From positions 1 through 42,982 of the IMG/VR virus record IMGVR_UViG_3300009079_000037: a stretch of 42,982 bases of DNA, one strand, 5' to 3'. The stretch is from a virus. Of the stretch, positions 3,359 through 41,119 are shown piece by piece. The translations under genes were made by a program, and so were the position numbers. The notes below the pieces were generated by a model. It searched no databases. It was given only the letters and a program-made list of their open reading frames with translations, and was not told where the DNA came from. How positions within the stretch are numbered: position 1 is the first letter of the stretch; every line of letters starts with the position of its first letter.

Positions 3359-3366
3359 TATTTATA
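3359..3366 (-). promoter_or_regulatory. Late-type promoter TATAAATA before the 418-aa fibre gene
   Basis: The minus strand reads TATAAATA, an exact match to the T4 late -10 element, 30 bases upstream of the ATG at 3329. It overlaps the last codons of the 1333-aa gene, so the C1q-like gene set can be expressed separately from the adhesin. Confidence 0.6.
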
Positions 3367-6300
3367 TTCCATATCTATCTTTATTTACATTAAAGTTTTG
3401 AGTAATTTCAGATACAGATAGTGCCTTGCCTGGATACACCCTAACAATTGAAATAAATCCAAGATACTCTCCACGATAAGTGCCAAATTTATCACATATA
3501 CCTATACCAAGTGTGCCGTTTGATTGACCAAGAGTTCTCATATTACTCATAGTAGCAACAGAAGTTTTATCGACATAAACTGTTCCTGATCCAGAGTTCA
3601 CAACTAATACATGCTGATGCCATACTTGAGTTGTTGGATTTGAACTGTAATCTACTTCTATTTCTGTACCAGAGGTATTTTTATAAACTATACTATTGTA
3701 TCCAAATAAGAGACCATTATCATTACCAGAACCACTATTCCAATCATCTTCGGCAGAGTTTGTCCAAAAATTTCCACCTGAAAATGGATTTGCCGCAGGT
3801 GCAGATGTGGAATCATAATAGTTCCATACCTCAATAGTATAAGTACCTCCTAAAGTAATTGCAGTATTAGGAAGAGATACATATCCTCCTATTGAATCAA
3901 ATCCTGGTCCATCTGTCCAATCAAACCAACCATTAGAATTATATACTACTTCAGAACTATTAGTTATAGTGCCATTATTACTTTCTCCACTTAGATCACT
4001 CCAAGTAGTTCCACTACCAGAATAAGAACTACTATTCAGTGCATCTAAATGTAATTCTAAGTTATCTGTAACTAATGTTGAAGCAGGTACATAATCTTCT
4101 GTGAATGGAGATAATAGTTTAACAACACTATTGTAAATATTTTTTATTTCTAAATCATTTAGAGCAACACTATAAACCATTACGTTGTCTATAACCCCAG
4201 TCAAGTATGCCTCAGACGTTTCATGTTCTGCTCCTCCAATTGAAACATTATTAGCACTACTTGTATTAATAGCAAGTGAAGGATTGTCTGTAGTTAGAGA
4301 TGTTATTTCTCTGCCATTAATCCAAATTTTAATATCAGCAACCGTACCAGAATCAGGACAGGTAATAGCAAACATATTTTTATATGTTAAATTGACGGAG
4401 TTAGTTGTTTCTACATATCCATTGCCAATTTCAACTCTAAATTTATTAGTTGAAGTTATTCTGCAAGTAAATCTTTGACCAGAAGAATCAGCACCATATG
4501 AAAATGGACGTGAATCAGTAGCAAGTGATACTGGTCTTACTGAAAATATAATTGTTCTTGCACTAGTTCCAGTTACTCCAGTATATGCATTACCAGATTC
4601 TCCATCAACAATACCAGCACTATCACCATAGAATGGTGCTGTCATATATTTTACACCATTATTACCATAACTACCCGCAGTAAGATTGGCAAATCCTCTT
4701 TGAATATATAACAGGGCATTAGCTTCTTGTTTAATACCACGAATTACAAGGTCCCATCCTATATCCGATTTATAAAAATCTTGATATGAAGAAATTACTT
4801 CTTTGCGATATAAATTAGATACAGTATTACCACCTGTTGGTGATATAGTGAGATCAGAATAAAAATTTGTGTCACTAGAAAGATCAGTATCCCATCCGTT
4901 AGTAGCACCACCATTACTTACATTGCCTAATGTATAATACAAATCACCTCTTACATGATTGATTATGGAAGATGCACCACCTCCGGTTATCACATCTTTA
5001 AATTTTATATTTTGACCAGGTAATAGTTTAGGTGTGAATTGAGTTTTAAAACCTTGATATGTTGATACTGGACCACCAGAACCAACCTGAAAATTAGAAC
5101 TACTACCTGATTGAGCAGCATATGGTAATGTTAAATCTCTACTATTTCCACTAATATCCTGCCAGTAATGACCCGAAGTAGAACCTCCCCATTCAAAATA
5201 TACCAATCCAGGTGATCCGGCAGCACCATTGTTGGATCCAGATGATAAACTACCACCTCCACCACCTCCACCAGCACCATAATTTCCACCAGCACCTCCG
5301 GATGTAGTAGAAGCATCAGATCCATCATCTCCATCCAATCCACCACCACCACCGGACGCTCCGTATCCAGCAGCACCACCAGAACCACCACTCGTAGGAC
5401 CATCAAACACTTTCCAATCACCTGAAGGCGAAAACTGTTCAGAAGGACTCGCTTGGGTTTTTTGTAAAACTATGGACTTAACTGCAGACGTAGGTAATGA
5501 CCCACTCGTCAAAGTAAGATTGCCATTTGCATCTGATGTAAATTGACCTGTGCCTAAATTAGTTCCTCCAGTTCCAGATACAGTGTATGGACTACTATCC
5601 AAAGAAGTGCCGGTAGAAATACTTGCTTGACCACTCCAAAAAGAACAATTTACTACTGTCCCAGATGTTAATACTGAAGCAGCAGAAATACCAACTTGAG
5701 ATTTAACATTATTAATACTAAATGTGGAATCTAATACTTCTGCAGTTGTTAATACAATAACTGCCCCAGCGGAAGAAGCACTGGTAGTAGTTCCAGCAGT
5801 TGGAACCTCCACATTCCTATTTTTAAATCCACCGCCACCGCCACCGCCGCCATTTGGGTCGTTTTGTCCAGATCCATTCTTGGTGCCGCCGCCACCGCCT
5901 CCTCCTCCAACAGATGATGAAGCACCAGCATTACCAGATCCACCAGCACCTCCATCAGCACCACCAAAGGAACCATCGGCACCAGCAGCACCACCTCCAC
6001 CTCCACCACCTACTGTAGCGGAAAAAACAAATCCAACACCACCACTACCTCCAGCACCACCATCTAACTGAACACTTGCATCTGCGCCAGATCCAGAAGG
6101 ATTAGTTCCAGTTCCACCACTACCACCACTATTTGATCCTTGATCACCTCCACTGCCACCACCACCTTCAATTAAAAGTGAACTAGATCTTAGTACTTGC
6201 GAATCTCCTCCATTACCACCACCAGCAGATCCTCCAGATCCAACTGTAACAGTTAATGATTCTCCTGCAGTAACTGGTAACGATGATATACACAGTCCAC

Positions 6301-7363
6301 CGCCGCCGCCGCCGCCGCCTGAATTTTGAGTAACAAAAGTTGCAGAATTATGACCACCACCACCTCCACCACCAAGTGCTACTACCTTCAATGAACTTAC
6401 ATTAGCAGGAACTGTAAATGTTCCACTTGAAGTAAATTCTTTATATCCTCCTGAAATTGCCGTAGTTATAGTTACATAATCTGACAATTCACTATTATAA
6501 TGAAGTTCTAAGTCGTTGGGTCGAATTGAATTAAAAACTTCTGTCTCGTCAATTAGTTTTCCAACTTCACTAGAACCATCACTATTTTGTCTTAATGGAG
6601 TGCCAATATAATAAAAACGCCTAGTTACATTAAGATCATCTCCACTTCCAGAAAATCCTTGAGATCTAAGAGTAGATCCATTATTTTTTACCTTAGAAAA
6701 TGCAACCATTAAAGTTGAACCAGACCCAGACGTTCCAGCATCTGCTGCTCCCACCAATATGTTATTGGAGAAATTTCCAGTGCCATACTCCAGAAAATTT
6801 TCAACACTAACACTACTGGCAACAATATCATCGTCTAAGAAACCAAAAGAAAACAAATAAGATCCTACTTTACTTCCATCTTCATCCCAAGCGCCTCCTG
6901 GCATACCAGTGGAACTAGATGTAGTGTCGCCTGTTGATTGTAGTGTGTCAACTCCAGAAACAGCAAACATAAATTGTGCTGTGGCACCACTTGGAAACGT
7001 CATGTTCTGTGCAGTCACAGAAGTTCCATCAGATATTTTAGTTGCTATAATATGACAAGGACCTTGACTAGAATTATAAATGGTTAATTCACTGAACCCT
7101 GTCGGAAGAGTGAAATCATGTGATTCTGCAGAATCACAACTGGCAACATAAAATACTAAATTTCCTGGATTAATGCCAGTTAAAGTTAATGGGTCTGTTT
7201 TTGTACTATTTGATATAGTATTAATTACAGAGACTTGTGGTTCTTTAAATTCATTTGAATATGCAGTTGCATCGGAAGAAATGCCAAATGATGATTTTGT
7301 ATTATCATCAAAGGTTGAAGTAGATAATACTCCATCTTTTGTTAGTCGGGCAACGTTTGACAT
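3362..7363 (-). CDS. Large glycine-rich adhesin / tail-fibre tip protein with two LamG-like domains (1333 aa)
   Basis: Domains in order: a beta-rich N-terminal region (about 50-260) shared with the 418-aa protein; a glycine-rich region (about 320-525) starting EFTSSGTFTVPANVSSLKVV and containing repeated runs of 7-9 glycines with short loops between them; a linker; a second glycine-rich block (about 660-710); then two concanavalin/LamG-like regions, about 920-1075 (TIIFSVRPVS ... IKIWINGREI ... NVSIGGAEHE ... IDNVMVYSVALND) and 1095-1330 (LELHLDALNSSSY ... TYTIEVWNYY ... VYVDKTSVATM ... ISIVRVYPGKALS). Polyglycine sandwiches are known from the receptor-binding adhesin gp38 of T-even-like phages, and LamG folds bind glycans, so host-surface binding is likely. 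The gene starts 2 bases after the preceding fibre frame. Glycine runs are partly encoded by long GGC tracts, which may vary in length. Confidence 0.7.
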   Translation of the reverse strand: MSNVARLTKDGVLSTSTFDDNTKSSFGISSDATAYSNEFKEPQVSVINTISNSTKTDPLTLTGINPGNLVFYVASCDSAESHDFTLPTGFSELTIYNSSQGPCHIIATKISDGTSVTAQNMTFPSGATAQFMFAVSGVDTLQSTGDTTSSSTGMPGGAWDEDGSKVGSYLFSFGFLDDDIVASSVSVENFLEYGTGNFSNNILVGAADAGTSGSGSTLMVAFSKVKNNGSTLRSQGFSGSGDDLNVTRRFYYIGTPLRQNSDGSSEVGKLIDETEVFNSIRPNDLELHYNSELSDYVTITTAISGGYKEFTSSGTFTVPANVSSLKVVALGGGGGGGHNSATFVTQNSGGGGGGGGLCISSLPVTAGESLTVTVGSGGSAGGGNGGDSQVLRSSSLLIEGGGGSGGDQGSNSGGSGGTGTNPSGSGADASVQLDGGAGGSGGVGFVFSATVGGGGGGGAAGADGSFGGADGGAGGSGNAGASSSVGGGGGGGGTKNGSGQNDPNGGGGGGGGFKNRNVEVPTAGTTTSASSAGAVIVLTTAEVLDSTFSINNVKSQVGISAASVLTSGTVVNCSFWSGQASISTGTSLDSSPYTVSGTGGTNLGTGQFTSDANGNLTLTSGSLPTSAVKSIVLQKTQASPSEQFSPSGDWKVFDGPTSGGSGGAAGYGASGGGGGLDGDDGSDASTTSGGAGGNYGAGGGGGGGSLSSGSNNGAAGSPGLVYFEWGGSTSGHYWQDISGNSRDLTLPYAAQSGSSSNFQVGSGGPVSTYQGFKTQFTPKLLPGQNIKFKDVITGGGASSIINHVRGDLYYTLGNVSNGGATNGWDTDLSSDTNFYSDLTISPTGGNTVSNLYRKEVISSYQDFYKSDIGWDLVIRGIKQEANALLYIQRGFANLTAGSYGNNGVKYMTAPFYGDSAGIVDGESGNAYTGVTGTSARTIIFSVRPVSLATDSRPFSYGADSSGQRFTCRITSTNKFRVEIGNGYVETTNSVNLTYKNMFAITCPDSGTVADIKIWINGREITSLTTDNPSLAINTSSANNVSIGGAEHETSEAYLTGVIDNVMVYSVALNDLEIKNIYNSVVKLLSPFTEDYVPASTLVTDNLELHLDALNSSSYSGSGTTWSDLSGESNNGTITNSSEVVYNSNGWFDWTDGPGFDSIGGYVSLPNTAITLGGTYTIEVWNYYDSTSAPAANPFSGGNFWTNSAEDDWNSGSGNDNGLLFGYNSIVYKNTSGTEIEVDYSSNPTTQVWHQHVLVVNSGSGTVYVDKTSVATMSNMRTLGQSNGTLGIGICDKFGTYRGEYLGFISIVRVYPGKALSVSEITQNFNVNKDRYGI
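6300..6319. repeat. (CCG)n microsatellite coding for a polyglycine run
   Basis: On the plus strand this is six CCG units plus CC, encoding consecutive glycines (GGC codons) in the 1333-aa adhesin on the minus strand. Related CCA/CCG tracts lie at about 5828-5850, 5885-5910 and 5995-6010. In an otherwise A+T-rich region these are striking. In-frame triplet tracts can expand or contract without breaking the frame. Confidence 0.75.
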
Positions 7364-7365
7364 AA

Positions 7366-9177
7366 TTAAGAAGCAGAATAAGTAAAGTCTAGGGAATCGG
7401 TAGTTTCATTATATAGTATCTCAAATCTCTCGGTAGATCCTGAGTTCTCATATCTTACCGCTCCTTTAACAGCAACATCAGTAGTCTCCAATCTTTCGTT
7501 ACTAGAATCATATTTTAATCCAGAAGCATCAGTTTTTGCTGCAACTGACCCCGTAGCAGATGTAGCAAATAATGGAAAGCATGTTGTATCTGAAGATTCA
7601 TCAGTAGCAGCAACACTAGATACACCTTCACCACTGATAGTGATTGTTTTTGTTGCACCAGTTCCAGAAGCAACAACACCATCTCCTACGAAGTTGAGAG
7701 TGGTAGCAGTAGTTGATAAGGGGGTTCCCTCATCCTGAACTGTTACACCACCTCCTCCAGTAATAGAAACTTCTGATATACCAGTAATTCTACCATTAGA
7801 ATCTACTACAATTTGAGCAACATTTGATCCATCACCATACGTAGCAGCAGAAGCGCCAGTTAGAGCAGTTAAGTTAACACCAGAACCACTAAATGTTGAT
7901 GCTGTTAATGTTCCATTAGAAGAATTAAATGTTAAATTTGATCCTGTCTTTGGAGAAATGCTTCCTGTTGCATCGGTTGCAAATAGTGGGAAGCAAGTAG
8001 TATCAGTAGATTCGTCTGCAACTGTAATAGTGGTAGGACTATTATCTTGCCATGTAGGAGCACTACCAGTACCATTAGATGTTATTACCTGATCAGAAGT
8101 TCCATAATTAGCACCACTAAGACCAATTTGTCCGGAAGATCCTATACGAAATCTTTCTGTATATCCACTACCATTGAAAAAGATTAAGTTTTTATTTGCA
8201 GTTCCTATTCCAAATCTAAAATCTCCACCAAGATAAACTAATTCTCCATCATTTCCGACTCCACCTGTGGGGAATGATCCACTAGATCCAGCAGTTCTTA
8301 ACCATATACTAGAGTTTTCACTACTTACTTTTATTGTTGGTTCATCACTAGCAGATAATGCTGAAACCTCAAGATTTGATGATGGATTATTAGTTCCGAT
8401 ACCTACATCACCAGCAGAAGTTACACGAACTCTCTCACTACCAGCAGTTTCTATAGTAAATGTATCAGCAGCAGGGAATCTAATCGCAGTATTGGTATCT
8501 CCAGTATGAATGATTTTATCTGATATGGATACATCACCAGATACTGTTAATGACCCTAATGTTCCAACTGATGTGATGTTTGTTTGTGCGGCAGTTTGTA
8601 GTGTTCCAGTTAGATCTGTTGCTGTAATACTATCAATACCACTTATATTAGTAGAGGTATCACCAACAATATCACCATTAGCAGTTATATCACCAGATAC
8701 TGTTAATGACCCTAATGTTCCAACACTAGTGAGTGAAGATCCAGTGACTCCTGTTCCAAGTGTAGTTGCACTTAAAACTGAAGTATTGTCAATTTTATAT
8801 TCTTTTCCAGATGCTAAATTTAAATTTTCAGAAGATCCTAAATTATCTCCTGTTGCCTCAAAATTAAACGTCTTATTTCCATCTCCAGATACAATTGTAA
8901 TACCACCACCATCAGCAGCAGCATCATTTGTTGCACCTGTACCCAACTCAATATTCTTATCATCCACAGTCATCGTGGTTGAATTCACAGTTGTGGTCGT
9001 TCCATCAATTTGGAGATCACCAGCAATTACAACTGTGCCTGTATTATCACCTACAGCAGCAGGGTCAATGGTTAAAGTTGCAGGACCACTAATTGTATTT
9101 GTAGATATATTAATCCCGGTTCCACTTGCTCCAGTTGATAATGCTGTTGCTGATGCTGTTCCGGTTACAGTTAACTT
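7366..9177 (-). CDS. C-terminal 603 codons of a tail-fibre gene, separated from its N-terminal part by an in-frame TAA
   Basis: The frame is open from directly after the TAA at 9178-9180 and is in the same frame as the 460-aa product upstream. It begins KLTVTGTASATALSTGASG and runs through a typical fibre block (GTTTTVNSTTMTVDDKNIEL), two copies of TSVGTLGSLTVSGD, a VGIGTNNPSSNLEV repeat, two copies of a CFPLFAT(D/S)ATGS block, and ends ERFEILYNETTDSLDFTYS. There is no ATG; the first conventional start is a GTG at 8988, 63 codons in and without a good ribosome binding site, so independent translation is doubtful. The fibre-type content is clear. Either it is expressed only by readthrough, or the stop is a mutation or sequencing error and the true gene is one product of about 1064 residues. 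Two bases separate it from the 1333-aa adhesin. Confidence 0.68.
   Translation of the reverse strand, partial: KLTVTGTASATALSTGASGTGINISTNTISGPATLTIDPAAVGDNTGTVVIAGDLQIDGTTTTVNSTTMTVDDKNIELGTGATNDAAADGGGITIVSGDGNKTFNFEATGDNLGSSENLNLASGKEYKIDNTSVLSATTLGTGVTGSSLTSVGTLGSLTVSGDITANGDIVGDTSTNISGIDSITATDLTGTLQTAAQTNITSVGTLGSLTVSGDVSISDKIIHTGDTNTAIRFPAADTFTIETAGSERVRVTSAGDVGIGTNNPSSNLEVSALSASDEPTIKVSSENSSIWLRTAGSSGSFPTGGVGNDGELVYLGGDFRFGIGTANKNLIFFNGSGYTERFRIGSSGQIGLSGANYGTSDQVITSNGTGSAPTWQDNSPTTITVADESTDTTCFPLFATDATGSISPKTGSNLTFNSSNGTLTASTFSGSGVNLTALTGASAATYGDGSNVAQIVVDSNGRITGISEVSITGGGGVTVQDEGTPLSTTATTLNFVGDGVVASGTGATKTITISGEGVSSVAATDESSDTTCFPLFATSATGSVAAKTDASGLKYDSSNERLETTDVAVKGAVRYENSGSTERFEILYNETTDSLDFTYSAS
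8533..8724. repeat. Two identical 36-base direct repeats inside the fibre gene
   Basis: Bases 8533-8568 and 8689-8724 are identical and 156 bases apart (52 codons), so both code in the same frame for the peptide VGTLGSLTVSGD. Recombination between them would delete 52 residues in frame. This looks like an internal duplication of a fibre repeat. Confidence 0.8.
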
Positions 9178-10560
9178 TTATGTTGGGTGAGTATTTCCAA
9201 TACGAACATTACCAGCAAAATAGTTAGTGGCATCACGCCATTCTTGATAAATTCCCCAGTTGTTTGTAACTGTTAGTCCAGTACTAGCATTTGGTGGTCT
9301 TAATCTCAACCCATACAGGTTGGTGATAGTTGCGTTTAATGTTCCAGTGCTACCTGTTGTCCCCCAATACTGAGATGTATCGTAATAACTAGCATTTGTT
9401 ATATTTACTGTTTTTGTTCCTGCACTGTTATTACTGATTCTAAGCAGAGGAGAATAGGAGTAATAATTTGTAATATTTACATTTGATGTGCCAACAGGGC
9501 TGAGCGATAAAGATGGACTATTGACATTGGCAATAGACTGAGTTCCCCCATCGGGTGGAGATAGGGCTATTGAATTTGCACCAAAGTATGAGCTACTTCT
9601 ACCATTTGCGTTGATTCCTGCATAGTAAAAACCATCAGCAAAACTAACATACTGTTTACATGTATTTGCGTCTGTCCAATCAAAAGATTGACTAAAACCA
9701 GCAAAATATAATCGTTCAATATCACTGGTTGTTCCTGCACTCTTTGTATATATTCTCTTATCAGCAGTTACAAAGTTATATCCGCCAGGAGTTGAGGCGT
9801 CAACTGTTTGTGTTGTGCCTAACTCTAGGTTTATATTAGTGCCAGCAATTACATTAAAACTACTACTGGTTGGATAAGTTTTTGTAGTAGTATCAGAAAG
9901 TAAAATTCCTCCAGTGTCTAATGTTGTTGCGATTGATATACCTTCTACATGAAGTTTTGCACTTGGACTAGCAGTTCCGATCCCTACATCACCATCAGAA
10001 GTTATACGAAGTTTTTCTGATGTACCAACACCAAATAATAAATTACCGGTCGAAGTACCTCTCAATACAGTATCATTATCTACGGCAGTATTTACAAAAT
10101 TACTAGAAGCCGTTGCTTGACCGAGCATCGTCCTATCATTGTCAGATGCATCAGTATTATCTGCACTCAATCTAATCTGAGGTGCTGTTGTATTAGTTAC
10201 AAGTAATGTTCCAGTATCTACATGTAATTTTTCTTGTGGGGAACTAATTCCAACACCAACATTTTCATTAGTTCCAAATGGTGCTAATGAAATTGTGCCA
10301 TTTGCATCTACGTCAATAGAGGGGATACCAGAAACATCATTAACAGAGAAAATACTTCCAGAGGTAAGATTATTTGTAACAGAAAATAATTGACCAGCAG
10401 AACCTTGAATTTCAAATGCAGTTGTGCCAGAACCAATATCAATATCAACTTTACCGGTAAGATCTGTATTACCAATAGCAGTTAATACTGTATCTGATTC
10501 GGTGATACTAGAAACACCAATATTAAAATTTCTTACCCGATTAGAAAGATATTTTGCCAT
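9178..10560 (-). CDS. Tail-fibre protein, N-terminal 460 aa, ending at a TAA inside a conserved repeat
   Basis: It starts MAKYLSNRVRNFNIGVSSIT and contains the fibre repeat x-(V/I)-G-(V/I)-G-x-x-x-P-x-x-(K/N)-L-x-V: VGVGISSPQEKLHV (about residue 101) and VGIGTASPSAKLHV (about 193). The last residues are AGNVRIGNTHPT, then TAA, after which the same frame continues KLTV, so the stop falls exactly where the other copies have E or A. The middle (about 300-440) is rich in N, T, Y and S beta-helix-like segments. Such proteins form long trimeric fibres. It follows the 108-aa gene by 1 base. A CAA to TAA, GAA to TAA or AAA to TAA change would explain the truncation. As it stands the protein lacks its distal 600 residues. 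Confidence 0.75.
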   Translation of the reverse strand: MAKYLSNRVRNFNIGVSSITESDTVLTAIGNTDLTGKVDIDIGSGTTAFEIQGSAGQLFSVTNNLTSGSIFSVNDVSGIPSIDVDANGTISLAPFGTNENVGVGISSPQEKLHVDTGTLLVTNTTAPQIRLSADNTDASDNDRTMLGQATASSNFVNTAVDNDTVLRGTSTGNLLFGVGTSEKLRITSDGDVGIGTASPSAKLHVEGISIATTLDTGGILLSDTTTKTYPTSSSFNVIAGTNINLELGTTQTVDASTPGGYNFVTADKRIYTKSAGTTSDIERLYFAGFSQSFDWTDANTCKQYVSFADGFYYAGINANGRSSSYFGANSIALSPPDGGTQSIANVNSPSLSLSPVGTSNVNITNYYSYSPLLRISNNSAGTKTVNITNASYYDTSQYWGTTGSTGTLNATITNLYGLRLRPPNASTGLTVTNNWGIYQEWRDATNYFAGNVRIGNTHPT

Positions 10561-10561
10561 T

Positions 10562-10888
10562 TTAGTTAAGTGTCTCCAAGATAGAAATTACTGCTTCTAA
10601 TGTAGTTGCTTCTCCAGTTAAAACTAACTGATCTCCAGATTGTAGAAATAACTTACCCTCTATCAAATTTGCAGAGTCTTTACTACTAATTGGAAAATCT
10701 GTGACAATACTTGTATCAGAAGCACTTCTTCTATGCTCTAATGTAATTTTGAGTGTTCCCGTAGTAGGATTTGATATATTTGCTAGCAATACAATACCAG
10801 TATAACCGGTAGGAGTTGTGTACACAACTCCTGCTGAAGTAGCAACTGATGGTGTAATTGTTTTGTATACGTTTAATTTTAATGCCAT
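10562..10888 (-). CDS. Small beta-sandwich fibre-associated protein (108 aa)
   Basis: The 108-aa protein begins MALKLNVYKTITPSVATSAG and has alternating strand-like segments (YTGIVLLANISNPT, TLKITLEHRRS, GKLFLQSGDQLVL, LEAVISILETLN). The pattern suggests one beta-sandwich. Similar small proteins are common among fibre genes of marine T4-like phages, where they are thought to decorate or attach fibres; this is recall, not a search. It lies 3 bases after the 960-aa gene and 1 base before the 460-aa fibre fragment, so translation is probably coupled. No catalytic motif, signal peptide or membrane segment is seen. Function is unassigned. Confidence 0.62.
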   Translation of the reverse strand: MALKLNVYKTITPSVATSAGVVYTTPTGYTGIVLLANISNPTTGTLKITLEHRRSASDTSIVTDFPISSKDSANLIEGKLFLQSGDQLVLTGEATTLEAVISILETLN

Positions 10889-10891
10889 GGG

Positions 10892-13774
10892 TTAACCTCC
10901 TAGTGCGATGATATATGGTGTTACTTGAGAGAATAGACTTTGTGAATATGATTGACCAGAGATTCTTCCCAGAGCTTGATCTATAACTACTCCATCACCA
11001 ATTTTAAAGTTTCCAGACTCATTGGTACTTGTAAATACCACTAATCCACCAGTTTGACTGATAGTTTCATTTTCTGGAATTGGAATTCCACCAGTTTGTG
11101 GAAGAGCAGTATTAATATTAGTACCTGATCCTATATACTGAAATGAATGACTTGATGCTAAAAGTCTGCTTTGTTTGTAAAAATTAGCAACACTACTAGT
11201 GGTTAATGCAATAGGAACTTCATTTGCAAACGTGATATCATATACATCGGTAGATGATTCAAGTGTTGACTCTACAATGAAATATGAAGGAACTAATTCA
11301 CCAGTTGCTGTTGCTGTAGTTCCAGAAGTTGGTGCCGCGATTGTTGGGTTTGCTATTGTAGACCCATAACCTCTACCACTAGAAGTGACAATAATACCAG
11401 TTACTACTCCAGTGTTTGATACCTCTGCGATTGCTTCAGCATCAATACCCCAACTTTCTGGAGAACTTGCAATTGTAACTGCAGGAGGATTAGAAGAGTC
11501 ATATCCACTACCACCATTAGTGATATTAATTCTTACAACTTCGTAATATAATGTATCAAAGAAAACTACTTGACCTGTAAATGGACGAATTGCTTCTATC
11601 TCAGCAGTTCCTCCAGAAACATACGTATGAGCAATCGTAGATGTTCCTACATTTACAGTAAATTGTGTAGTGGATGGTGTAGATTCAACTTTAAAGACAT
11701 ATCCATAATTACCTGATGGGAATGCAGCACTTCCACTTGGACTTGTGCAACTAAAAGTTAAATTTTCAATTTTTACATCCATTCCAACATCAAATCCATG
11801 TGCTGCAGATGTGGTGACAGTCAATACTCCAGTAGTATTTGCATAAGTTGCTGTGGAAACACTTTTTTGAGTAGTTGCAATATTTACTCTAATTGTATTA
11901 TCCCCAGCACTTGATGCCTGTGATACTGTACCTGTATATTTTTTAGGACTCACTCCAGTGGCAACTAAACCTTTGTTTCCAAAAGATGAATTTGAGTTTG
12001 TTAGATCACAACACCCACCATTTATACACTCAACTGCAACATCATTACAAATGGTAAACATAGAAACTAATTGAGCATATCCTTCATTGCTAATTTTACA
12101 ACCATGACCACCAGAGTTAAATTGTGTAAAACTATCAACTACCATAGATTTAATGTCTCCTATGGCATCATCTCCATCAATATTAAGACCAGTAGATCCG
12201 TTAATAAAATTAGTACAATTTTGAATATATGGTGACTGATCAATAAATGGTGGATCGGAAGGATTGAATGAAATTACATCACCATTATTAGAAGATGAAG
12301 AATTAAAAGACAAATCAGAAATATAACAACCGTTATTCACATAGATAAAATCTGTATTTGCATTTTGTGGTTTGAGTGTAACTTCTCTTAAACTACTACC
12401 AACAATTGATGTTTGTGCTGGCATGATCAGTGGGTTATCTTCTGTGTATTCTCCGGGATAAACTCTAACCACTGTGTCTGGAGTTGCTACTGATAATGCA
12501 GATTTGATTGTAGTTTTTGCTGTCCCTAACGTAGTGCCAGTATTTGTGTCATCTCCATCTTTACTTACATATATGATATTACTTTCAGGGGCAGTTATAG
12601 CAATTGATGAACTTTGTGCGCCTGTTAACTCTACAGAAACATTTTGTCTTAAATCTATAAGATTTACCAGACGTGCTTTTGGGGCGTTAGTATAGGTACT
12701 ATTTGCTTGAAATATTAATTTGAATAAAGGTCTTACATCATTACGAGGAAATTTTGGAGCATTTGTGGCATCATCATTACCAAGATCTAAATCTTCAAAC
12801 TCTGCCTTCATTGCATCCCCTTCGGTTGCATAATTTCCCTGCCCTTGAATAGAAACTATAGGAGCATCAATATCAGAAGTAGCAATTATAAAATAAACAC
12901 CAAAATTCCCACTACTTACTTGAGCAGAAGACCAAGAAGCACCAGAAACATTATATTCAATAAGATTACCTGTAGAAAACTTTACCGGATATGAAGTAGC
13001 AGCAGTTCTGGTCCATTGACCACCTGTTCCATTTCTATATAAAATTGGAAATTCGCCAGCATTAGTTATAATCTGTTCAAATAAATTTGATGGAGATGCA
13101 GAATGACTTATTGATATTTTATAATCTTCATTATAAAATATTCCACTATCGCCTAAACCAAATTGTGCATGACTATTTGTATTGCCATCACCAGTGGTAG
13201 AATAAGTTACTGCAGTAAATCCAGAAGCAACTACTGCACCTCTAGTTTTTTGTAGATATTCGTGCGTTTGCCAATCTAATGCAATCCCATGTCTAGTATC
13301 AAAAACAAAACTGGCAGCACTACCATTCCAATATAAAATTGCAGTCGGAACTTCATTCTTATAGTCTATATCTGCTGAACTTGCTGCCTTGTTTTGTAAA
13401 ACTCCATTACCATCAAAATACACATAGTACAACCCATTTGTATTTGCTATTGTAGTTGTTTGTGCTGAGGTAAATACAAATCTAATTCCTTGACACCAAA
13501 CATCAAATCTAGATGATGTTGGTGCAATTGAAAATACTCTAGTAGCATTTGTAAACGATATAGTACTTTCTGAGACATCATTATGCCCCATAGGTTCATT
13601 TGCTTCAAGAGGTGCAGTGACATCTACAATTCTTTCTGTGCCACTTTGATTTCTCTTTAAAAATATTTTGCCATCATGAGTATTAATTGCTACTTCGCCT
13701 AATTCTAATTGCGAAGTAGTTGGAATATTTCCACTCGTAGATGAACGCCTCAGGCGTATCTTTGGTGCTGCCAT
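10892..13774 (-). CDS. Tail-fibre / tailspike-like protein with parallel beta-helix region (960 aa)
   Basis: The N-terminus MAAPKIRLRRSSTSGNIPT ... LELGEVAINTHDGKIFLKR is the typical attachment end of cyanophage fibre proteins. A pectin-lyase-like right-handed beta-helix starts near residue 400: YVSKDGDDTNTGTTLGTAKT, then IKSALSVATPDTVVRVYPGEY, then stacked short strands to about 610, including the cysteine-containing CINGGCCDLTNSNSSFGNKG. Near residues 755-830 are two GG-x-GY repeats (INITNGGSGYDSSNPPAVTI; VTSSGRGYGSTIANPTI), the same type as in the gp7-like and gp8 proteins. It probably binds or degrades surface glycans; no catalytic residues can be assigned. The length suits a large tailspike. 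It lies 18 bases downstream of the 71-aa coiled-coil gene and likely shares its transcript. Confidence 0.72.
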   Translation of the reverse strand: MAAPKIRLRRSSTSGNIPTTSQLELGEVAINTHDGKIFLKRNQSGTERIVDVTAPLEANEPMGHNDVSESTISFTNATRVFSIAPTSSRFDVWCQGIRFVFTSAQTTTIANTNGLYYVYFDGNGVLQNKAASSADIDYKNEVPTAILYWNGSAASFVFDTRHGIALDWQTHEYLQKTRGAVVASGFTAVTYSTTGDGNTNSHAQFGLGDSGIFYNEDYKISISHSASPSNLFEQIITNAGEFPILYRNGTGGQWTRTAATSYPVKFSTGNLIEYNVSGASWSSAQVSSGNFGVYFIIATSDIDAPIVSIQGQGNYATEGDAMKAEFEDLDLGNDDATNAPKFPRNDVRPLFKLIFQANSTYTNAPKARLVNLIDLRQNVSVELTGAQSSSIAITAPESNIIYVSKDGDDTNTGTTLGTAKTTIKSALSVATPDTVVRVYPGEYTEDNPLIMPAQTSIVGSSLREVTLKPQNANTDFIYVNNGCYISDLSFNSSSSNNGDVISFNPSDPPFIDQSPYIQNCTNFINGSTGLNIDGDDAIGDIKSMVVDSFTQFNSGGHGCKISNEGYAQLVSMFTICNDVAVECINGGCCDLTNSNSSFGNKGLVATGVSPKKYTGTVSQASSAGDNTIRVNIATTQKSVSTATYANTTGVLTVTTSAAHGFDVGMDVKIENLTFSCTSPSGSAAFPSGNYGYVFKVESTPSTTQFTVNVGTSTIAHTYVSGGTAEIEAIRPFTGQVVFFDTLYYEVVRINITNGGSGYDSSNPPAVTIASSPESWGIDAEAIAEVSNTGVVTGIIVTSSGRGYGSTIANPTIAAPTSGTTATATGELVPSYFIVESTLESSTDVYDITFANEVPIALTTSSVANFYKQSRLLASSHSFQYIGSGTNINTALPQTGGIPIPENETISQTGGLVVFTSTNESGNFKIGDGVVIDQALGRISGQSYSQSLFSQVTPYIIALGG

Positions 13775-13792
13775 TTTAATTACCTATGTAGG

Positions 13793-14008
13793 TTAATACA
13801 CCCCGGCATCTCTTTCTGTATTTACAGATTTTTTACGAGATGCGGGTTTTTCTTTTTGAATTACATCCACTTTATTTAAAGCAGCAGTAAGTTCGTTATC
13901 ATATATTTTTAATTTTGCTTTCAATGCAATCACTTGACTTTGATAAGAATGCAACTCAGTAGTCATAATTTCAACAAGAGTTGCATAATCTACTTGAATA
14001 TCATTCAT
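13793..14008 (-). CDS. Small coiled-coil protein (71 aa)
   Basis: The 71-aa product begins MNDIQVDYATLVEIMTTELH and has heptad-like spacing of hydrophobic residues across about 10-52 (LVEIM, LHSYQSQVIALKAKLKI, LTAALNKVDVI), followed by a basic tail (EKPASRKKSVNTER). It is probably a helical oligomer, perhaps an adaptor or chaperone for the adjacent fibre proteins; the function is not known to me. A late-type GATAAATA lies 21 bases upstream. It sits between the 535-aa and 960-aa fibre genes. A second short coiled-coil gene sits in a comparable position at 16383-16622. Confidence 0.6.
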   Translation of the reverse strand: MNDIQVDYATLVEIMTTELHSYQSQVIALKAKLKIYDNELTAALNKVDVIQKEKPASRKKSVNTERDAGVY

Positions 14009-14028
14009 AAAATTAATTCATTCTATAT

Positions 14029-14036
14029 TATTTATC
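14029..14036 (-). promoter_or_regulatory. Late-type -10 element (GATAAATA) before the 71-aa gene
   Basis: The minus strand reads GATAAATA 21 bases before the ATG at 14008, one base from the T4 late consensus. It overlaps the stop codon of the 535-aa gene and could drive the 71-960-108-460 gene set. Confidence 0.45.
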
Positions 14037-15642
14037 AATATGTTCCAGCATCAACTACTAGGTTCTGGAGGTACCTTCCAGCGGTTGCACCATCAGGAGC
14101 ATCACCACCAGCAAGATAACTAATAACTGCTTCATCAGTTCCAGCAGTATCTGTTACCTTATAAGCAAGTGATAAGAAAGCAACTGGTGTTGGAGCAGCA
14201 TCACTGCCACTACCAGCAATAGCAGTAGTACCAGCAACGAATAAATCCGCTCCTTCGTCATAACCAATGAATACATTGTCTAATGAACCACGATTAAGAA
14301 TCAGACCAGAATCTGAAGTAGGAGCAACACTAGGACCAAGCCCCTGTTGCAGTTCAAGGATAGCATCTGTTACTGTCGTATTTGTTGTATTGACAGTAGT
14401 AGTTGTTCCATTAACTGTTAGGTTACCTTGGATCGTAACAGTAGCTCCATTATCAGAAATAGAGCTATTTACTAATTGTGTATTACCATCATCCCATTTA
14501 AGGACTGTATTTGTGGTCAAGTTTGCAGCATTTTTAAATGCTAAATCAACTGTTTGTCCTTCACTAGCAGAAGAAGTTTTAGTAAGACCTTCACCTGCAG
14601 TCACATTACCGACATAATTGCCAGTGGTATCTGTACCAAGTGCAACAGAGTTTGCTTGAATTGTTGCAACACCAGCACTAGTAACTGTAACATCACCAGA
14701 AACTTTTGCAAATGTATAATCAGTAACCGTGGTTAGTGCTGCCTTGCGATTGGTTCCACCGCCACCATCATCAACAATGATTAAATCTGCATCAGCAAGT
14801 GAAGTAGTTGCAGTACCACCATCAATATCTAATGCAGAAATAGCAACTTTGTCTGCTGTTGAAATTGTTGCTAACTTAGTATCAACAATACCAGCACTAG
14901 CATTGATATCTGCATTAACAATCGTACCATTCGCAATCATGGTACTCGTAACAGTACCACTATCACCAGTTGTTACAACTGTACCAGTAGTTGCTGGAAG
15001 TGTAATTGTAGTAGTTCCTGCTGCCGCTGCAGTTACTAAAGTTACAGTACCAGAGGTTGAACCTGCAATGTCAATACCAGTAGAACCAACACTAACAGAA
15101 CCAGATACACTTAAAATATCGCTATTTGGATTGTATGAAAGTTCTCCATCTGTAAATACTGTCTCTAATGCTGCACTGCCATTATTACTATTTACAAAAG
15201 TTAAGAAAAAAGATGAATCAGTATTAGTATTTTGAGTATTAACTTCTGCTCCAGCAACAGATGGAGCAAATGAAAGAACTTCTGATGCTTGATCATATTC
15301 AAGTAAGTATGCACCAGCAGATCCTGGTTTTGCTGCAGGAAGGGTCAGATCATATGATGCAGTTACACTTGCAGGTGCTTTAATATCAATTGTATTTGAT
15401 CCATTATTAGTGCCCTCTTCTAAGGTTACTATACCGCCAACAGTTGCAGTATTTGCAGTTAGAAATTCATCTACTCTTGAAGTATATGAGGTTCCGCCAA
15501 CATGAATAAAAGTACTAGCACTATCTGCAATATAAAAATTATCACCAGTAGTATCTACAAATGGTTCACCCGCAAGTGCATTAGTAACGTTACCTTCTGG
15601 GGTAGTTGATCCTCTTTTTAATCGTAATCTTGGTGCCGCCAT
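14035..15642 (-). CDS. Tail-fibre protein (535 aa)
   Basis: The N-terminus MAAPRLRLKRGSTTPEGNV followed by LAGEPFVDTTGDNFYIAD is the same class of fibre attachment region as in the 960-aa protein. The rest is low-complexity beta-strand repeat sequence rich in T, S, A, V and G: TVTLVTAAAAGTTTITLPAT, STMIANGTIVNADINASAG, and LTVNGTTTTVNTTNTTVTD, a block related to GTTTTVNSTTMTV in the 603-codon fibre fragment. The C-terminus (FLSLAYKVTDTAGTDEAVIS ... GATAGRYLQNLVVDAGTY) may be a compact tip. It is likely a trimeric shaft or fibre protein of the virion. A perfect TATAAATA stands 39 bases upstream. Receptor and exact location are not predictable from sequence. Confidence 0.72.
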   Translation of the reverse strand: MAAPRLRLKRGSTTPEGNVTNALAGEPFVDTTGDNFYIADSASTFIHVGGTSYTSRVDEFLTANTATVGGIVTLEEGTNNGSNTIDIKAPASVTASYDLTLPAAKPGSAGAYLLEYDQASEVLSFAPSVAGAEVNTQNTNTDSSFFLTFVNSNNGSAALETVFTDGELSYNPNSDILSVSGSVSVGSTGIDIAGSTSGTVTLVTAAAAGTTTITLPATTGTVVTTGDSGTVTSTMIANGTIVNADINASAGIVDTKLATISTADKVAISALDIDGGTATTSLADADLIIVDDGGGGTNRKAALTTVTDYTFAKVSGDVTVTSAGVATIQANSVALGTDTTGNYVGNVTAGEGLTKTSSASEGQTVDLAFKNAANLTTNTVLKWDDGNTQLVNSSISDNGATVTIQGNLTVNGTTTTVNTTNTTVTDAILELQQGLGPSVAPTSDSGLILNRGSLDNVFIGYDEGADLFVAGTTAIAGSGSDAAPTPVAFLSLAYKVTDTAGTDEAVISYLAGGDAPDGATAGRYLQNLVVDAGTY

Positions 15643-15680
15643 TACTCTACCTTCTATATTTTAGTAATTAACTATATATA

Positions 15681-15688
15681 TATTTATA
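15681..15688 (-). promoter_or_regulatory. Late-type promoter TATAAATA before the 535-aa fibre gene
   Basis: An exact TATAAATA on the minus strand, followed by an alternating TA run, in the 47-base gap between the 93-aa gene and the 535-aa fibre gene. Confidence 0.6.
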
Positions 15689-15689
15689 A

Positions 15690-15971
15690 TTAATAAGTCC
15701 CATAATCTATAGCATTGTCACCTAGTTGAACAGGATCATCGCTATCAGATCTATCCACAACTTCAAATGGAGGCACATATTCGTGAATACCTCTTGAATC
15801 ATTCCACATTAATACATAACCTTCTTTTTTATTTGTCTGATCTATGTCATCAAGATCTGCTAAATTACCTGGGTACTGATTAAAACCAACATCTACTAAT
15901 CTTTTAGATGTTTTTGGTAGTCCAACTTGATAACTACTAGTACTTAAACTAACTTGATATTTTACTGTCAT
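15690..15971 (-). CDS. Small virion-associated protein of unknown function (93 aa)
   Basis: The 93-aa protein begins MTVKYQVSLSTSSYQVGLPK. A conserved-looking core is LADLDDIDQTNKKEGYVLMW with N-D-S-R following, then an acidic C-terminus (VVDRSDSDDPVQLGDNAIDY). The D-L-D-D-I ... GYVLMWN pattern is common in fibre-associated proteins of marine phages, where such segments join repeats, but the exact role is unknown. Its ATG overlaps the stop of the 118-aa gene by the ATGA arrangement, so translation is coupled. The C-terminal DNAIDYGTY resembles the LVVDAGTY end of the next fibre gene, hinting at shared packing or assembly at the C-terminus. Confidence 0.6.
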   Translation of the reverse strand: MTVKYQVSLSTSSYQVGLPKTSKRLVDVGFNQYPGNLADLDDIDQTNKKEGYVLMWNDSRGIHEYVPPFEVVDRSDSDDPVQLGDNAIDYGTY

Positions 15972-37274: not shown

Positions 37275-37403
37275 CTACTTTTTCTTGTTTTTTTTGGTTT
37301 CTGCTGATTTTTTCAAGTAATAATCTGATTTTGGATCGGTAATTAATACCATACCAGATTTTTTAAATTCTTCACTTTGATCAGGCACGGGTTGATTTGC
37401 CAT
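37275..37403 (-). CDS. Small lysine-rich protein (42 aa from the preferred start)
   Basis: From the ATG at 37403 the product is MANQPVPDQSEEFKKSGMVL followed by ITDPKSDYYLKKSAETKKN and a lysine-rich end. I prefer this start because GGAG lies 6 bases upstream and a late-type AATAAATA lies 35 bases upstream. The frame is open further to an ATG at 37499 (74 aa; MSQLVVNLPAQKVWVRRVNK at its N-terminus), whose ATG overlaps the stop of the previous small gene (ATGA), so a coupled longer form is possible. The function is unknown; the charged C-terminus is probably disordered. It precedes gp25 by 26 bases and could be a small tail or assembly protein. Confidence 0.55.
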   Translation of the reverse strand: MANQPVPDQSEEFKKSGMVLITDPKSDYYLKKSAETKKNKKK

Positions 37404-37499
37404 TTTGCTCCAAATTAGTATAGAATAGAACTCTTTATATTTATTCACCCTACGAACCCATACTTTTTGTGCTGGTAGGTTGACGACTAGTTGACTCAT
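37404..37499 (-). other. Upstream in-frame extension or remnant of a small cyanophage gene
   Basis: This stretch is open in the frame of the 42-aa gene and begins MSQLVVNLPAQKVWVRR. That beginning resembles the N-terminus of a short cyanophage protein I recall (LPxQxxxVRK followed by a Y-L-Y-D-like segment), but the resemblance stops after VRR, where the bases carry the AATAAATA element instead. It may be the true N-terminus of a 74-aa product or a leftover of a decayed gene. Confidence 0.35.
37438..37445 (-). promoter_or_regulatory. Late-type -10 element (AATAAATA) before the 42-aa gene
   Basis: The minus strand reads AATAAATA, one base from TATAAATA, 35 bases before the ATG at 37403. It may also serve gp25 and gp6 downstream. 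Confidence 0.4.
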
Positions 37500-40534: not shown

Positions 40535-40867
40535 ACCACTTTATATATCACCCCTTTGAGGGTTTTTTACCTCAGAAAATTTTTGGGATTATTTTGATAT
40601 ATAGAAGTCGCTTGGGGACCTTTGTAGGTTAGGAGGGACCCATGCATTTTAAACGTAGCGGCCGGTAACATATAAGGGCGCTAATCGCCATTACTGGTTT
40701 TTACTTAGTGTCGGCGCTAAGTGTTACTTAGTGGCGGTCACTATGTATTACTTAGTGCCGGTCACTATGTGTTACTTAGTGATGTGGAGTTTGTGTTACT
40801 TAGTGTTCGCATGTTGTATAACATAGCAGGGGCACAGTGAGTGTTACTTAGTGCCCCTCACTATGTG
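40535..40867. other. Non-coding stretch before the spike gene set, with repeats
   Basis: I see no credible gene in these 333 bases. They hold the shared GATATATAAAGT motif (40538-40549), GGGACC direct repeats near 40616 and 40636, a small stem at about 40677-40690, and most of the 24-base array (40701-40877). On the plus strand a perfect AGGAGG stands before an ATG at 40643, but the peptide has only 8 residues (MHFKRSGR). Confidence 0.6.
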
Positions 40868-40877
40868 TTACTTAGTG
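40701..40877. repeat. Direct-repeat array with 24-base period, core TTACTTAGTG
   Basis: TTACTTAGTG occurs at 40701, 40724, 40748, 40772, 40796, 40844 and 40868: spacings 23, 24, 24, 24, 48 and 24. The copy expected at 40820 is decayed. Units are roughly GTGTTACTTAGTGCCGGTCA plus CTAT. Each unit also has a CACTA ... TAGTG stem. Read on the minus strand, one unit carries stop codons in all three frames (TAA, TAA, TAG-TGA). The stop of the 83-aa gene lies in the first unit it meets. Confidence 0.85.
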
Positions 40878-41119
40878 CTGGTCTTAATCTTGTTAGCGAG
40901 ACGACCCAAACTTACGAATGGGACTAATGCTAACAGCATGTGGCGTTTCTTACAATTATGCATGGATTCTGAACCAGATTTCCAATCACAATAGGCAACG
41001 CCACTAAGTGGATAGAACTCAATTCCACTAAGTGCAGATGAAGGGCGTGAAACATAAAATCTCACATTGCCGGTGATACGTTGAATACAATTAGCAGTGG
41101 AGAGGTTGATGTTAGTCAT
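40868..41119 (-). CDS. Small early-type protein of unknown function (83 aa)
   Basis: It begins MTNINLSTANCIQRITGNVR and includes FYVSRPSSALSGIEFYPLSG and a hydrophobic segment MLLALVPFVSLGRLANKIK at the end. Two CACTTAGTGG copies 24 bases apart lie within it (41002-41010 and 41026-41034), encoding the two (A/P)LSG turns and echoing the array next door. The stop codon is in the first unit of that array. It has the inverted-repeat promoter cassette and the A/C-rich leader common to this cluster, so it is likely transcribed early. Whether it is an authentic product is less certain than for its neighbours. Confidence 0.5.
   Translation of the reverse strand: MTNINLSTANCIQRITGNVRFYVSRPSSALSGIEFYPLSGVAYCDWKSGSESMHNCKKRHMLLALVPFVSLGRLANKIKTSTK

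Follow-up and report, generated by a model that had tools for sequence, protein, structure and literature searches.

Introduction

Does a large tail-fibre gene of a marine phage end at a single in-frame TAA in its middle, or is this stop passed by ribosomes, a boundary between two genes, or an error in the sequence? The question was raised by a sequence-only reading of what we call the window, the whole 42,982-base virus contig analysed here. It is a single IMG/VR record (IMGVR_UViG_3300009079_000037), presumably assembled from a metagenome. That reading offered three explanations: a nonsense mutation that shortens the fibre, programmed readthrough and a sequencing error. The analysis leaves the first and the last in play, while readthrough finds no support.

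The nearest annotated DNA matches of the window come mostly from Synechococcus phages and cover short blocks only; this marine tailed phage, which has not been cultivated, is a relative of the cyanophages. The part of the gene before the stop (first piece) matches PHROG 9942 and 18345, both tail fiber. PHROG matches in the window comprise tail fiber and virion structural families, and baseplate wedge genes are present as well. The position of the family matches inside a tail and baseplate cluster identifies the locus as a predicted structural fibre gene.

Results

The interrupted gene is encoded on the minus strand, which the sequence-only reading left unstated, and extends as a whole from 10560 to 7366 (Table 1). 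Its first ORF (10560-9178, 460 aa) ends with AGNVRIGNTHPT, followed by TAA at 9180-9178. Beyond this stop the frame reads KLTVTG and stays open for 603 codons up to the TAA at 7368-7366, so that the arrangement described earlier is found as such in the deposited sequence. The motif copies PQEKLHV, PSAKLHV and PSSNLEV that had been reported are likewise present. An open frame of 603 codons has a chance probability of about 3e-13, calculated as (61/64)^603; this value and the homology to the C-terminal part of one relative gene argue that the frame is not a product of chance. On the plus strand, a 226-aa ORF with an ATG start (window 8510-9190) runs antisense across the stop, but nothing indicates that this is a true gene.

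Table 1. Coordinates of the interrupted fibre-like gene and its surroundings in the window
Feature	Position	Strand	Remarks
5' part of fibre-like gene, 460 codons before the stop	9181..10560	-	N-terminal 40 aa conserved in relatives, followed by variable beta-helix/repeat region
In-frame TAA, codon 461 of the frame, inside P-X-X-X-L capping-loop-like motif (HPT*KL)	9178..9180	-	
3' part of the same gene, 603 open codons and TAA	7366..9177	-	Conserved with C-terminal part in L007; under purifying selection
First GTG (8988) and first ATG (8973) of second piece	8971..8988	-	No ribosome binding site
Upstream neighbour, 108 aa	10562..10888	-	94% identical in L007
Downstream neighbour, 1333 aa, LamG/glycine-rich	3362..7363	-	N-terminal 372 aa conserved in L007, same order
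Cassette without DNA homology to L007	9174..10466	-	3' edge 4-5 bases after the stop

The closest relative of the window virus is the syntenic contig IMGVR_UViG_3300037847_006395 (L007). Between the same neighbours it carries one uninterrupted ORF of 863 aa that begins with MAKYLSNRVR and ends with DSLDFTYSAS, as the two pieces of the window do. The genes upstream (960 aa and 108 aa) are 92% and 94% identical to those of the window, and the downstream gene is the same. In a second relative (L096) the frame runs without a stop for at least 1151 codons to the contig end, with the block that follows the stop in the window lying inside it. Other viral loci match the start of the second piece, and in most of them this match begins 100 codons or more into an open frame. 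Aligning relatives across the junction had been proposed earlier as a check; L007 and L096 are both open there, and no two-gene arrangement was seen. With two intact orthologues, the comparison supports a single gene that would be split by one in-frame stop in the window.

Comparison with L007 also reveals where the gene has been exchanged. Alignment of the L007 contig to the window by blastn gives blocks at 10467-15844 and 8683-9173 (90.6% identity) and nothing alignable between 9174 and 10466. Base-level identity resumes with TAACTGTAACCGGAACAGC, four bases past the stop codon and in the same frame. At the protein level 41 N-terminal residues (76% identity), the block after the stop (161/178 aa) and the C-terminal block (238/264), the latter two at about 90% identity, are conserved; the exchanged parts are residues 42-460 and 641-800. 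L007 thus resembles the window in the position of the gene, its ends and its neighbours, but it lacks the internal stop, has an unrelated and shorter segment in place of the middle cassette and differs in a further variable segment nearer the C-terminus. Conserved ends around exchanged middle segments are the pattern of a mosaic fibre gene, to which we assign this locus from the comparison with L007. The sequence-only reading had found the stop but missed how close it lies to the edge of the non-homologous region, a closeness measured against the single relative L007. The chance that a randomly placed position comes as near as two codons to one of the two edges of the swapped segment is about 0.75%; this hints at a link between the exchange and the stop, though from a single, post hoc comparison. 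For the 230 residues before the stop no relatives were found in phage records, viral contigs or genome contigs, and the junction itself had no match in a direct search of viral contigs that allowed any codon in place of the stop.

The part behind the stop has been under selection for most of its divergence from L007. The dN/dS values of the post-stop blocks are 0.21 (178 codons) and 0.27 (264 codons), those of the neighbouring genes 0.10-0.15, and the blocks contain no further stop or frameshift when compared with L007. Purifying selection together with the lack of other damage leads to three readings of the stop: it would be recent, not real, or bypassed.

The stop lies within a recognizable motif. 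For mosaic adhesive trimer (MAT) fibres a capping-loop consensus V-G-G/N-pi-X-X-P-X-X-X-L has been described (PMC10769870). The window sequence IGNTHPT*KL resembles it, being one residue shorter before the proline, and the stop takes the place of the second X after the proline. The MAT fibre Bd2133 of Bdellovibrio (PDB 8ond; PMC10769870) shares the P-X-X-X-L motif of trimeric beta-helix fibres and is matched by the first piece with an E-value of 2.4e-8; it is, however, a bacterial fibre without an internal stop, and the likeness is one of sequence alone. Among 40 non-redundant copies of a related motif in the other fetched loci, the residue in question is A, Q, E, S or another amino acid and in none a stop. 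In 18 of the 40 the codon is one step away from TAA, which makes the change of a sense codon to TAA by a single base substitution plausible, as had been suggested. We further scanned IMG/VR with an exact pattern (GGNACN...) that covers part of the motif family and would miss the window's own GGAAATACT. For TAA within the motif there were 15 matches, and none of them was flanked on both sides by long open frames. The CAA control gave at least 120 stretches; among the matches listed, 102 of 128 sites had 100 or more open codons to either side.

Discussion

If the stop were a true gene end, the second piece would be translated separately, from the GTG at 8988 or the ATG at 8973, to yield a two-part fibre. 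Some phages do encode their large fibres in two genes, and candidate starts exist: contrary to the earlier statement, the second piece does contain ATG, the first as its 69th codon, five codons behind the first GTG (64th codon). However, neither start is preceded by a Shine-Dalgarno sequence, as had rightly been noted for the GTG. The codons in front of both starts, which would then be untranslated, are conserved with L007 (94% identity over residues 2-160 of the second piece), and relatives carry these residues internal to one gene. This conservation makes a separate gene unlikely. Given the lack of a credible start with a ribosome binding site and of separate genes in relatives, we consider the two-part fibre very improbable. 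The second piece has an intact frame, purifying selection and no start of its own; these features would fit programmed readthrough, in which occasional bypass of the TAA by ribosomes adds a small share of long fibres to the short ones. In the literature on stop readthrough in tail fibres we found frameshift or code-15 cases only; the known structural case that emerged is the A1 protein of Q-beta. There, too, a long structural protein is made by passing a stop, but that stop is a UGA in the coat gene of an RNA phage, whereas the one in the window is a TAA that is not conserved and has no supporting context. It is absent from L007 and L096, and the motif scan gives no TAA in a long open frame where CAA is common. 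TAA is moreover the commonest stop in the window (19 of 29 genes). The codon is followed by AAG, and neither a leaky context nor a stimulating structure was recognized: RNA downstream of the stop folds no more stably than shuffled sequences (z = +1.07) and matched no Rfam element. A tRNA was not found in the window either. Readthrough would thus be a most doubtful explanation. The use of TAA as the regular gene end and the lack of a tRNA in the window also led us to reject stop-codon reassignment. Slimmer still are the prospects of a stop kept at the cassette edge as a site of low-rate readthrough or an on/off position, which would provide short and long fibres and be reset by module exchange.

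A more serious alternative is an error of sequencing, consensus or assembly, with a sense codon in the population and the TAA arising as an artefact, perhaps favoured by a mixture of strains at the mosaic junction. The sequence comes from a single, presumably metagenome-derived virus record, the stop sits at the edge of a strain-variable region, a setting in which variants can become mixed during assembly, and the frame shows no other damage and is under purifying selection. Searches of phage records, viral contigs and genome contigs for a second copy of the allele or the cassette gave none. Against an error speaks that no other gene is broken among the long ORFs of the window, so that the contig is not generally poor. 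Misassembly through internal repeats was rejected, as the window holds no junction repeat of at least 15 bases that would force it. On these grounds an artefact is a possible but less likely source of the stop. By judgement, we favour a recent nonsense allele in a mosaic fibre gene, which is probably biologically real.

For such an allele the following course of events may be proposed. The middle of the fibre-like gene was exchanged for a different cassette, at about 9174-10466, and a recent nonsense substitution would have put the TAA into a motif whose other copies carry a sense codon there. Because the stop sits at the cassette edge, the substitution possibly occurred during or soon after the exchange. 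Translation would then stop after 460 residues, keeping the N-terminal end, which presumably attaches to the virion. The distal 603 residues with the conserved C-terminus would be lost, and this loss would probably leave a non-functional product or a short stub. The TAA-bearing form is presumably a minority or recent allele. That a shortened fibre alters the host range, a possibility raised by the sequence-only reading, is speculation.

An interrupted mosaic fibre gene is an ordinary and already known kind of event in phage populations. Exchange of tail fibres by recombination occurs in marine phages, for example in vibrio phages (PMC12028318), and the accessible parts of that report describe fibre-gene recombination hot spots, as here, but, unlike the window, no stop at a cassette edge. 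What the window offers is a mosaic within a single fibre gene, with a stop right beside a clearly defined exchange boundary. If the stop is true, it would illustrate on a small scale the price that receptor-binding genes pay for exchanging modules; there is no ground for claiming a new decoding mechanism.

Other observations on the contig and its relatives

In one relative (L087:11870-12523) an extra gene of 217 aa is found where the window has a small ORF (37275-37499); a search of this region for an Rfam intron gave no match. Another locus that is related at the N-terminus (L106:8001 onward) carries an ORF of 109 aa whose end falls within QG collagen-like repeats and is soon followed by further in-frame stops, possibly owing to a frameshift in the repeat array. 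The intergenic stretch at window 40690-40880 contains many copies of a ACTAAGTAACAC-like unit in direct orientation. Adjoining it is a 34-base element (40614-40647) that occurs identically at the end of the L007 contig (36124-36157), and the repeat stretch and this element together could be a regulatory or replication-related site.
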